Positions 33,958-62,749 of a DNA stretch of 64,000 bases are shown here, in pieces. The stretch comes from Notamacropus eugenii. Taxonomy: Eukaryota; Chordata; Mammalia; Diprotodontia; Macropodidae. The notes below the pieces were generated by a model. That model worked only from the letters and a program-made list of their open reading frames with translations, was not told the DNA's origin and searched no databases. Position 1 is the first letter of the stretch. Each line of letters begins with the position of its first letter. The DNA lies in the NCBI RefSeq assembly GCF_028372415.1, contig NC_092874.1:336368651-336432650 (forward strand), given 5' to 3'. The position numbers and the translations under genes are program-made.

Positions 33958-34249
33958 AAGAAACTGGTGACCAGATGTCTCCCCACCCAACTAGGAGCTG
34001 GGAAAAATCTCAGGTCTGGTTAGAGACAACCAGGAAAACCTACGCATCTCAGCACACCTCTGTACTACAGCGTCTGAAGCCAGTGTTGGCTTAAAGAAGA
34101 TCCATACCCCACACTATAAGATTTCACTCCCCTTGCGCTCCTAGGCGCTCCCTTCCATTACTTCCCCTCCCCTCCCTGCCCCCTCTTTCCCCCAACAACT
34201 AAACACCCTCATATTTCTCTTTTCTTTTTAAATTGGGCTAGGACAGAGG

Positions 34250-34684
34250 AGGTAGAACTCAGCCCCGCCTCCGGTGCTTCTCGCCTGCCTCCTCCTCCCT
34301 GGAAGGAGGTCAGAGATGGGAGAGGTAGGCAAGAACTTGGATCCAGCCACTGGGCAAGCAGCTGCTTTCCGCCTGCCCCGTTCCCTTTCGCTAGTCTGAG
34401 GGGCTAAATTAGCATTTCATTCCCTCTTCATCTCTTGTACCTTCCTTGGAGGTGGGAAGGGAGAATGGGGGAAATAAAAAGAGAAAGAGAGAGGGAGAGA
34501 GGGAGGGAGGGAGAGGGAGGGAGGGGGAGGGGGAGAGAGGGAGAGAGAAGGGTGTGGATTAGAAAGGATGAGTGGGAGGGGCGGGGGGGACCGCCCAGAC
34601 TGGGGTGGGGCGGTGGGCGTTTAGGGGTTTCCCCAGGTTTTAGGTTCTGCTCGTCTCACCACTCTGGACAATACCGTCAGTGAC
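34250..34684 (+). promoter_or_regulatory. LVRN: GC-rich promoter and 5' leader of LVRN
   Basis: Base composition changes sharply to GC-rich and CpG-containing here and stays so through exon 1. GC boxes are visible: CCCCGCCTCC near 34264, GGGGCGGGGG near 34578 and GGGGCGGTGGGCG near 34606. A purine tract of GAGAGGGAGGG repeats runs from about 34470 to 34555. No convincing TATA box was seen, as is common for CpG-island promoters. The transcription start is not determinable from sequence alone. Confidence 0.6.
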
Positions 34685-35922
34685 ATGGGGGTCACTGGCT
34701 ACTCAGTCAACACCACGAGAATCAAGTCCAACTCCGGCTTCTACCTGAGCCGCAAGGTGGTCGTCCTTAATATGGTGGTAATGGGTGCGCTACTGCTGGC
34801 GGTGGCGGTGCTTGGTTCCTCCTACGCCCGCTGCAGTCAGACATCTTCGCAGCCGTCGGAGAAGTCCAGGACGGTGACTAGAGCCGCACCGGCTTTCCAG
34901 GTGGCGGGCCTCCAACAGCAAGCCGAGGAAGAGAAAAAGGCGAGTAAGATTAGCATCCTCCACGCCCCTGGGACCCGGCCGAGCTCCACGAGACCCTCCT
35001 GGTCCTGGGACCACCCGAGCCCGTCCACCGCCGGGCCCCTGGACCACTCGACCCCGTCCACCTCCGCGCCCCTGGACCACCCGAGCCCGTCCACCGCCGG
35101 GCCCCTGGACCACTCGACCCCGTCCACCTCCGCGCCCCTGGACCACCCGAGCCCGTCCACCGCCGGGCCCCTGGACCACCCGAGCCCGTCCACCGCCGGG
35201 CCCCTGGACCACCCGAGCCCGTCCACCGCCGGGCCCCTGGACCACCCGAGCCCGTCCACCGCCGGGCCCCTGGACCACCCGACCCCGTCCACCGCCGGGC
35301 CCCTGGACCACCCGAGCCCGTCCACCGCCGGGCCCCTGGACCACCCGAGCCCGTCCACCGCCGGGCCCCTGGACCACCCGAGCCCGTCCACCGCCGGGCC
35401 CCTGGACCACCCGAGCCTGTCCACCGCCGGGCCTCTGGACCACTCGACCCCGTCCACCTTCGAGCCCCAGCTGCAGCCCTCCTCCGAACCCTGGAAGCAT
35501 CCGCGCCTGCCCTCCGACGTGGTGCCACTGCACTATGACCTGGAGCTCTGGGTTCACCTGCAGCCGAACCAGGTCCAACAGTCCTCGAAGGTTTTCTGCG
35601 GGCAGGTCAACATCACTGTGAAATGCGTCTCCCCGACCACCCGGGTGCTGATCCACAGCGTCAGCCTAAACTACAAGGGCGCCAAGGTTCTGGGTCCCTT
35701 GCCCGAAGGCCTCGGGGCTGACCGGGAGCAAGGGCCAGTGGGCCAGGTGGCGGTGAACAACTTGTGGAAGTTCCCGGAGATGGAGTACCTGGTGATGGAA
35801 CTGAAGGAAACTTTGAAGCCCGGCCGCCACTACGTACTGCAGTTGAACTTCTCCGGCTTCGTGAACCAGACCCACAGGGATGGGTTGTTCCGCAATTTGT
35901 ATTCCGACCAGGGAAGGCTTAG
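34685..35922 (+). CDS. LVRN: Laeverin (aminopeptidase Q), exon 1: anchor, stalk, start of M1 domain
   Basis: First coding exon of an M1-family zinc aminopeptidase of the plasma membrane that removes N-terminal residues from peptides; in humans it marks extravillous trophoblasts. The ATG has G at -3 and +4. Residues 1-24 are a basic cytoplasmic tail (SNSGFYLSRK, the laeverin-type signature), 25-48 a hydrophobic signal anchor and 49-270 a Pro/Ser/Thr-rich stalk with an 11-residue tandem repeat at 109-262. The M1 N-terminal domain starts near 274 (RLPSDVVPLHYDLELW). N-glycosylation sequons NIT, NFS and NQT follow. The exon ends AG|GTAAGC after two bases of a codon completed in exon 2. Choice of LVRN over ENPEP, ANPEP or TRHDE rests on the tail and VPLHYDLELW; the rest of the family shares the fold. 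Confidence 0.92.
35009..35470 (+). repeat. LVRN: 33-bp coding minisatellite in the LVRN stalk
   Basis: Thirteen in-frame units of 33 bp (35009-35437) plus a degenerate fourteenth (35438-35470). The consensus encodes DHPSPSTAGPL. Units 2 and 4 encode DHSTPSTSAPL, unit 9 has Thr for Ser, unit 13 has Leu for Pro, and unit 14 is DHSTPSTFEPQ. The alternation of units 1-4 shows a duplicated 66-bp pair. High GC and no stop codon in several frames keep false open frames on both strands. The repeat lengthens a mucin-like, probably O-glycosylated stalk. Confidence 0.97.
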
Positions 35923-37011
35923 GTAAGCGATAGTATCCTCATCCTCAGAGTTACCGATCCTCATCCTCTTCGCTGCTCCTCCTGGTTCCTTTCTATGTCC
36001 ACTTTGTTTTTCTCCCTTTTCCAATACCCCTTCCCTACCTATCTTCACTCTCACCATGCAAGATTTTCCCTTCACTTCTGACATCTTAAGTATTCAGTAT
36101 TCAGGACTACCCCCTCTGGTCCTCTTCGCCAGCCTTTCTTTCCCCATCTCTCCAATCCAAGAGCTGAAGTTCTTTTCTTTCAGAGGAGTCTTCTCATCTC
36201 TCCCAATCCCTCTCGAGCAGGATTGCCATTCTCACCTTTGATAAATCTGACTTCATTCCTTCCCATTTTCCAAAAGGATACAGTTTATCTTGTTCCTTCC
36301 TCTTCGTTCCCCCTAATTGTCCTTAGTTCAATCCTGGGCAGCAGTTTGTCCTCCCTTTTCGAGGTTCCATCTCAGTTAAATCTGTTCCTTTTTACATCAG
36401 TTTCTTTCTGCTCTTCATAGGGCACAGGACTCTCTAAAGCATTGCAGATTTGTCTTAGTTTGTCATACCTAGTCATCTAAGGGCACTCAGTTTCTACTTT
36501 CACCCCATAGCTGCACTTTACTTCCCTCTCTAACTTTCTGACCCAACAGGCTTTTTCCTTTAGAAATGGAAAGTAATAGCAAGAGTATGTATTCTGAGTT
36601 CGTGTGTGTGCGTGTATAAAATCAACTTTTCTTTGTATTCCATTTGGGAAAGCTCAATTATGGCATCTTCTTAATTTAGACAGGAGGAATTCCTATCCAT
36701 TTATTTCTTGTTGAGCTTTCTGACTGCATCAATTAATTATACAAAGCACTTGGGGATGCAGTTTATATATGTAAAATGCCAAATAAATATTCCCCCTTTC
36801 ACACATGCCCTCCAATTCCGTTTCTTCCTGTCTGTTAGGCTTCTATTCTCTAAACTCAAGACATTTCTAATTAAATCTGATCTTTTGTGGGTTCACAAGT
36901 CACACCCTTTTGTTTTATAGCAGGTGTGTATTTTCCTTCTATATGGTATTATTGGTATTAAGGTTTTCAAAAAAATTTCTTGTACAAGTTTCTGGATCTG
37001 AATGAATTCTT

Positions 37012-37224
37012 TTTTAAAAAATTAGTCCTTGCATTGCAATGAAGTTCCAAGTCTATCAGAAAAAACTCTGGTATGCTGTGGTCGTTGCTGTGCACAAAGT
37101 TTTTCTGGTTCTGCTCCTTTCGCTCAGCATCAGATCATATAAGTCTTTCAAGGATTCTCTGAAGTCTTCCTGTTTCTTATAGCACCTGTTTATTATTTCT
37201 TATAGCACCATCATATTCCATTAC
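37012..37224 (-). mobile_element. Short 3'-end L1 insertion with target-site duplication
   Basis: Minus-strand end of L1 ORF2 (TGCTCCTTTCGCTCAGCATCAGATCATATAAG is the reverse of 16080-16130 in the intact copy). Flanked by exact 16-bp copies of ATCTGAATGAATTCTT at 36996-37011 and 37225-37240, with a poly-T start. A small tandem duplication (TTTCTTATAGCACC) is present near 37170-37210. No L1 3' UTR is included beyond the tail, so the RNA or the copy was rearranged. Confidence 0.88.
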
Positions 37225-46054: not shown

Positions 46055-46197
46055 GGCTCTGATTGCTTCTCAACTGGAACCAACATTTGCCAGGAGAATT
46101 TTCCCCTGTTTTGATGAGCCAGCTATGAAGGCAACCTTCAGTATCACAATTGTGCATCATCCTGCTTATGTGGCTCTTTCCAACATGCCAGTCCTAG
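46055..46197 (+). CDS. LVRN: Laeverin exon 2
   Basis: 143 bp, residues 413-460. The acceptor TTTTAATCCAG and donor GTAAGG are both good matches. It encodes [20 protein letters not shown] and then [20 protein letters not shown], the M1 N-terminal-domain signature (PCFDEPxxKAxF). The first base completes Arg413 begun in exon 1; the exon ends with one base of codon 461. Its frame fits both neighbours. Confidence 0.93.
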
Positions 46198-47147: not shown

Positions 47148-47284
47148 TGATGTCTGAAAGAGATGCAAAGGGAAGCAAATGGACGGTTACCGCCTTTGAA
47201 ACAACTCCCCTAATGTCAACATATATAACTGCATTCGTTGTGTGTGACTACAGTTATGTCAACGGAACTGAAAGGGGCAAAGAG
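47148..47284 (+). CDS. LVRN: Laeverin exon 3
   Basis: 137 bp, completing residue 461 and coding 462-506. Reads MSERDAKGSKWTVTAFETTP, then LMSTYITAFVVCDYSYV and the sequon NGTE, all typical of the M1 N-terminal beta domain. Acceptor TTTCTTTAG, donor GTAAAT, phase 0 at its end. Confidence 0.93.
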
Positions 47285-50190: not shown

Positions 50191-50317
50191 GTACGGGTTT
50201 GGGCTCGGAAAGATGCAGTTGCTCAAGGTGGAGTAGACTTTGCTTTATCTATTGCAGGCCCTATCTTCTCAAGGCTGGAAGATTTACTTAATGTCAGTTA
50301 TCCTCTTTCAAAAACAG
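50191..50317 (+). CDS. LVRN: Laeverin exon 4
   Basis: 127 bp, residues 507-548 plus one base. Encodes VRVWARKDAVAQGGVDFALS, then IAGPIFSRLEDLLNVSYPLSKT, the end of the N-terminal domain and its junction to the catalytic domain, with sequon NVS. Acceptor GTTTTTTTAG, donor GTGAGC. Confidence 0.93.
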
Positions 50318-52745: not shown

Positions 52746-52897
52746 ATCTCATCGGGTTTCCTATTTTTAACACACAAGCAATGGAAAATTGGGGACTAAT
52801 AACTTTTGATGATTTTGTGTTGATACAAGAGGAGGATGACTACCCAGAGAGAAAAACCATCATTTTGTCCACTGTCACACATGAAATTGCCCATCAG
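52746..52897 (+). CDS. LVRN: Laeverin exon 5: exopeptidase motif and HEIAH
   Basis: 152 bp, completing D549 and coding 550-599. Carries the exopeptidase motif as QAMENWG (559-565), where most M1 enzymes have GAMEN and human laeverin has His at the first position. The zinc-binding HEIAH lies at 594-598 with catalytic E595; the exon ends after HQ, so the next intron splits the HEIAHQ/WFGN block. Acceptor ATCCATTTAG, donor GTATGT. The change at Q559 should affect recognition of the substrate N-terminus, given what is known for the human residue. Confidence 0.94.
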
Positions 52898-55161: not shown

Positions 55162-55275
55162 TGGTTTGGAAACTTAGTTACCGCGAAGTGGTGGAATGAT
55201 ATTTGGCTCAATGAAGGATTTGCAAGTTATTTTGAATATTATATTTCTAAAGACTTTGATCCTCAAATATTCAAA
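55162..55275 (+). CDS. LVRN: Laeverin exon 6: third zinc ligand
   Basis: 114 bp, residues 600-637. Begins [21 protein letters not shown]617 lies exactly 18 residues after H598 and completes the HEXXH-X18-E zinc site. It continues [18 protein letters not shown]. Phase 0 at both ends; donor GTAAGT. Confidence 0.95.
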
Positions 55276-62075: not shown

Positions 62076-62749
62076 TTTCCCCGCCAGTGACTTGACTTCT
62101 GAGTGTCCTCTCCACCCCCACCTCGCCTCCAGATCCTCCCAGCCAGCACTTGGGGTCTGAGATTCAAATGCTGCTTCCCAGCCTCAGGGCTTTGGGCGGG
62201 GGCAGGGCTGCTGTTCAGTGTGAGATTAAGTTCAGGTGCTCAGGTCAGGGCAGGGCTGCCTCACGGGCTCTGTTCCCTCAGGGGATTTATGCAGAGACCT
62301 TCAACAATGTATCCAGGGTCCTGCCTGCTTGGGAAGCCCTGGTCTGCTCCTACCTCCGCTGCTGCCTCCCGAGGGGGCCTGAGTTATGGGGGCACCCCAC
62401 TCCCCTCTCGACCTGCCAAACAGACCCTCTCACCGACCCTTGTCACCTGTGGGTGGAGGGACCCGCACGGCTGCTGGAGATTCTGTCCCTGAAGCCTGCT
62501 CGGATCTGCTCCTTTCGGCCCTGCGCCGCTGAGGCTGGGTTGGGCTCTGCTCCAGATCCGGGGCACGAGGGACCTTTTGCGAGAGGTTTTCAGGCTCTCT
62601 GGAGCAGAAATCTCGTCCGCTCCGTTCTGTGGCTTCTGCTGCTCCAGAATTCACCGGTGGTTCTTTTTTTTTTACAGGTATTTTATGGGCAGTGGGTTTG
62701 GAGGTAGTGTATGTGCGTCTTTCTACTCCGCCATCTTGGCTCCGCCCCC
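62076..62749 (-). promoter_or_regulatory. Half-L1 5' UTR / internal promoter
   Basis: GC-rich leader between the element's first base (GGGGGCGGAGCC) and the ORF1 start. L1-type 5' UTRs carry an internal RNA polymerase II promoter; GCCAAGATGGC is a YY1-like site at the extreme 5' end. Open frames on the + strand across this leader are chance. Confidence 0.6.

Follow-up and report, generated by a model that had tools for sequence, protein, structure and literature searches.

The window, a 64,000-nt stretch of DNA that was analysed as a whole, carries on its forward strand exons 1–6 of a gene that is most likely laeverin (LVRN), whose first coding exon contains an in-frame array of 33-bp units in the stretch that encodes the stalk of an M1 aminopeptidase. 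The features of the locus are as follows.

34685..35922, plus strand: coding part of LVRN exon 1, encoding the cytoplasmic tail, the membrane helix, the array-bearing stalk and the start of the M1 N-terminal domain; donor GT after 35922
34757..34819, plus strand: membrane anchor, residues 25–45, the 21-residue window with the highest Kyte-Doolittle value (mean 2.5)
35009..35470, plus strand: in-frame tandem array of 14 x 33 bp, residues 109–262, with units in the order A B A B A A A A A' A A A A'' B'
35471..35521, plus strand: 17-residue link from the array to the M1 domain, LQPSSEPWKHPRLPSDV (from the translation; the M1_N profile begins at residue 280)
35522..35922, plus strand: start of the Peptidase_M1_N domain in exon 1 (PF17900, 2.2e-12 with exon 1 alone)
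46055..46197, plus strand: LVRN exon 2, AG/GT borders, frame kept
47148..47284, plus strand: LVRN exon 3, AG/GT borders, frame kept
50191..50317, plus strand: LVRN exon 4, AG/GT borders, frame kept
52746..52897, plus strand: LVRN exon 5, AG/GT borders, frame kept, with QAMEN (residue 559) and HEIAH (residue 594)
55162..55275, plus strand: LVRN exon 6, AG acceptor and GT donor, frame kept, with WFGN (residue 600) and NEGFA (residue 616)

Joined together, exons 1–6 encode 637 residues without a stop codon (acceptors AG in 5/5, donors GT in 6/6), and the reading frame has not closed where exon 6 ends, the gene continuing beyond it. The joined product matches the full Pfam profile of Peptidase_M1_N (PF17900, 4.1e-44) and 112 of the 218 positions of Peptidase_M1 (PF01433, 6.7e-36). 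An open frame of 413 codons (34685–35926), with an in-frame stop 5' of it at 34622, crosses the array into the M1 N-terminal domain, and a single-sequence AlphaFold2 model places the membrane helix at residues 23–48. The zinc motif HEXXH-X18-E is intact, consisting of HEIAH at residue 594 and, after 18 residues, the Glu carried by NEGFA in exon 6. The Pfam domains, the membrane helix and HEIAH-X18-E together support the view, put forward in an earlier note on this DNA, that the gene encodes an M1 aminopeptidase with laeverin-like architecture; the name laeverin for the array-bearing gene is presumptive, and comes from that note and from likeness to the human protein. Two other Pfam candidates, CD34_antigen on residues 17–85 (E 0.22) and DUF1570 on the joined exons (E 0.017), were below the Pfam cut-off and were rejected.

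Laeverin of placental mammals is a type II membrane M1 aminopeptidase (PMC6584185) in which HEXXH-X18-E is conserved (PMC8488692). Its exopeptidase motif is HXMEN in human, while rodents lack the His and have Gly instead (PMC6584185). The corresponding residues in exon 5 read QAMEN and thus depart from the human motif and from the rodent Gly alike; as the rodent proteins are laeverins without this His, HXMEN marks the family in some species only. The change may alter substrate choice.

The array proper (35009–35470, plus strand), when cut in register from 35009, consists of 14 head-to-tail units of 33 bp without any indel, encoding 154 residues, in agreement with the 13 clear and one degenerate 11-residue units and the roughly 150 added residues reported from first inspection. 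Its placement between the membrane anchor and the M1 domain is likewise supported by the order of the anchor (residues 25–45), the array (109–262) and the M1_N profile (from 280). Tandem Repeats Finder reports it as a row at 35008–35458 (period 33, 13.7 copies, 94% matches, 0% indels), with a score of 811 that is the highest among 32 rows in the 64,000-nt window. Its units are tandem, in frame and a multiple of three in length (14 x 33 bp, 0% indels), as in a coding VNTR. The type A unit, DHPSPSTAGPL, accounts for nine of the 14 units, all identical at the DNA level, and the type B unit, DHSTPSTSAPL, occurs as units 2 and 4, which are identical to one another. Unit 9 (A') is one base and unit 13 (A'') two bases off type A, and unit 14 (B') is a degenerate, B-like DHSTPSTFEPQ. 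A search of the window for the type A unit with at most three mismatches gave 11 matches, every one within the array (0 in 100 shuffles), the remaining three of the 14 units being at least four bases away from type A. These counts rest on one assembled sequence. A literature search among open-licence papers found no report of this LVRN array.

Several other features were seen in the window. A pyrimidine-rich arm and a purine-rich arm (34154–34191 and 34505–34542), 313 nt apart and 71% complementary, lie just 5' of the LVRN start. On the minus strand, a 236-codon open frame (34790–35500) spans the array; since the array is stop-free in all six frames, it is no evidence of a gene. Open frames at 37018 and 52263 share KFQVYQKK and further residues, and are probably copies of one interspersed repeat. 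At 62096–62704, where the GC content is 0.60, overlapping open frames of 203, 129 and 136 codons occur, with no Pfam match at E 0.1. A scan of the 64,000-nt window with Rfam returned no family at the gathering score. SINE-tail patterns occur in small number and do not identify the source as marsupial.

Counted from residue 50, 59 residues precede the array, and the 17-residue link separates it from the M1 domain. Human laeverin has a much shorter stalk that is not known to contain such an array. The first zinc-binding His (of HEIAH) is residue 594 here and would be residue 440 once the array is subtracted, whereas the tiger orthologue, with a coding sequence of 3,093 bp, has the first HEXXH His at position 454 (PMC8488692), a number taken from one predicted protein record. 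The 154-residue array therefore explains why the zinc His lies 140 residues further along than in tiger and, judged from these sequences, the N-terminal region without it would be about as long as that of this one placental orthologue. The peptide used for an antibody against the C-terminus of mouse laeverin is numbered 972–991 (PMC6584185), which by itself is uninformative about the stalk.

In composition, Ser+Thr make up 30.5% of the array and Pro 24.7%, and Asn and Cys are absent; it is thus a Ser/Thr/Pro-rich tandem repeat, as in mucin-type domains. Mucin domains may also be defined more strictly, by at least 40% Ser+Thr over 100 residues, and the best 100-residue stretch here stays below that value at 34%. 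Ser6, Thr7 and Pro10 are invariant in 14/14 units, and position 4 is Ser in 10 units and Thr in four. Of the three forward frames, the one used is the richest in Ser+Thr (30.5%, the others having 19.6% and 0.7%). Pro stands at +3 of 14 of the 18 array Thr residues; Pro at +1, +3, and -1 or -3 is preferred around mucin-type O-glycosylation sites (PMC9950641). From this composition and proline placement, it is plausible that the array is mucin-type O-glycosylated. In the AlphaFold2 model, residues 49–288 form neither helix nor strand, and block-mean pLDDT over residues 101–260 is 36–41; as confidence is low over the whole model (mean pLDDT 42.9), this is weak evidence for a disordered stalk. Asp-His also occupies positions 1–2 of all 14 units, amounting to 14 pairs in 154 residues, and it is conceivable that these pairs make the stalk responsive to pH or metal.

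Among known systems, the VNTR of carboxyl ester lipase (CEL/BSSL) appears closest in build and the stalk of platelet GPIb-alpha closest in role. The CEL VNTR likewise consists of 33-bp units of 11 residues in an enzyme gene, is present in 3–23 copies (most often 16) and is O-glycosylated on Thr (PMC8692231), the likeness being one of build. It differs in forming the C-terminal tail of a secreted lipase, encoded in the last exon, whereas the LVRN array forms a stalk encoded in the first coding exon. GPIb-alpha has a mucin-like stalk over 30 nm long that holds its working domain off the membrane (PMC5021522), and a coding VNTR of 1–4 repeats of a 13-residue unit (PMC6322330). Unlike LVRN, it is a receptor and not an enzyme, and its macroglycopeptide has a longer unit and fewer repeats. 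A similar route to such sequences is the mucinization described by Pajic and Gokcumen, in which segments rich in Pro acquire Ser/Thr and lengthen as in-frame VNTRs (PMC12776774); as treated there, the process concerns whole mucins, chiefly of saliva, in contrast to the stalk of a single M1 peptidase considered here, and the words LVRN and laeverin are absent from the main text of that paper. Within the M1 family, the best match of exon 1 among solved sequences is aminopeptidase N chain 8yzi_B (E 1.3e-12), aligned from chain residue 9, where a short SPVS-type repeat precedes the PW..RLP junction that LVRN also has. The aminopeptidase N stalk has a few four-residue repeats instead of an 11-residue minisatellite, and the parallel is no more than a hint that repeats grow readily in this stalk. 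The LVRN array is probably a generally familiar type of spacer in an unusual place.

As to how the array arose, its near-identical A units point to recent copying. A rough clock (assumed rate 2.2e-9 per site per year, star model) puts the A/B split at ~28 My and the A units at ~4 My, values that hold to an order of magnitude only. The earlier note had described two alternating types in units 1–4 and read them as a 66-bp duplication step. The alternation stands, units 1–2 being identical to units 3–4 as a perfect 66-bp repeat; the duplication behind this ABAB start is likely but not proven, because two type B units among 13 intact ones fall two apart in 11 of the 78 possible placements. For a proto-unit in the flanks, the best local matches had shuffle P values of 0.059 (5') and 0.056 (3'), which does not establish one. 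An exact 29-base part of the unit had no match in IMG/VR viral contigs, and a human recombination motif has eight matches in the window and none within the array. Array length may be polymorphic among individuals. In a human survey, many tandem repeats seemingly had one length, while 35,638 variable minisatellite loci were counted, of which the common ones overlap 254 exons (PMC8096271).

We consider it probable, with reasonable though not high confidence, that the array is a young, expanding coding minisatellite that has expanded in frame and makes an O-glycosylated spacer holding the enzyme off the membrane. By this mechanism, unequal exchange or slippage would have enlarged a GC-rich minisatellite within the coding part of LVRN exon 1, the gene itself apparently remaining intact; with the frame kept, 154 residues would have been added to the juxtamembrane stalk. 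The PSPSTAGP segments would gain mucin-type O-glycans in the secretory pathway, and the glycosylated stalk would be a stiff, protease-resistant spacer. An extended mucin-like stalk measures 0.25–0.30 nm per residue, on which basis the array would span ~38–46 nm. The zinc aminopeptidase domain would thus be held away from the membrane, with its reach and sugar load set by copy number.

The main competing explanation, possible but in our judgement unlikely, is that an expanded minisatellite has been tolerated as a neutral passenger in an already disordered stalk, where it may be glycosylated and the enzyme works alike whatever the array's length. The nine identical units are consistent with recent homogenisation, and neither test of selection among the 14 units gave a significant sign. 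Across the units there are nine distinct base changes relative to type A, of which one is silent, against 28–43% expected, depending on the mutation model, a deficit that is borderline at best (binomial P 0.05–0.23); none of the eight amino-acid changes removes Ser or Thr (P 0.10–0.35). What speaks against neutrality is the exact frame and the constancy of Ser6, Thr7 and Pro10, although recent copying by itself would keep the units alike and these residues constant.

We regard it as very unlikely that the array acts chiefly at the DNA level, as a CpG-rich, G-quadruplex-prone repeat that affects LVRN transcription or its own instability and has only a secondary effect on the protein. Its GC content of 0.797 and CpG observed/expected ratio of 0.853 do stand far above those of the window (0.394 and 0.172), and G4Hunter (25-base windows, cut-off -1.2, the minus strand being G-rich) passes 87 of 437 array windows (20%) against 564 elsewhere (0.9%), a 22-fold enrichment. 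However, this score rises with high GC alone, and whereas G-run motifs whose loops reach 15 run throughout the array, a G4 motif with loops of 1–7 is absent from it; moreover, the 33-bp period is divisible by three, and all 14 units stay in frame. The G-rich features could aid instability of the array while the protein reading stays. Least probable of the explanations considered is an assembly error, with a real array that is longer, shorter or absent: nine identical units out of 14 would be poorly placed by short reads, but the 33-bp register throughout, the ordered variants, the degenerate last unit and the open frame on both sides argue otherwise. A miscount of units would change their number, and hardly the existence of the array.

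Research on laeverin has dealt with human trophoblast, with preeclampsia and, under the name Taqpep, with felid coat pattern. The felid orthologue controls that pattern, and pseudomelanism cosegregates with a replacement of the first zinc-binding His (PMC8488692). In the dunnart uterus, LVRN is at 190.7 TPM in pregnant and 1.0 TPM in non-pregnant animals (adjusted P 2.43e-5) (PMC5799185). Placentation in mice does not require Lvrn (PMC6584185), a finding that argues against presuming that laeverin acts in the placenta of every species. A more speculative and quite improbable idea is that LVRN repeat number is a fast-changing dial for how far the aminopeptidase reaches from the cell surface, making the protein a tethered enzyme-mucin hybrid; if the species is a marsupial, the dial might operate in the pregnant uterus, or else in skin, where the felid orthologue acts on coat pattern. 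The repeat-extended stalk of laeverin would offer a natural length series for asking whether membrane distance and sugar load alter a membrane aminopeptidase, and with LVRN, the proteins that may become mucin-like through minisatellite expansion come to include the stalk of an enzyme.
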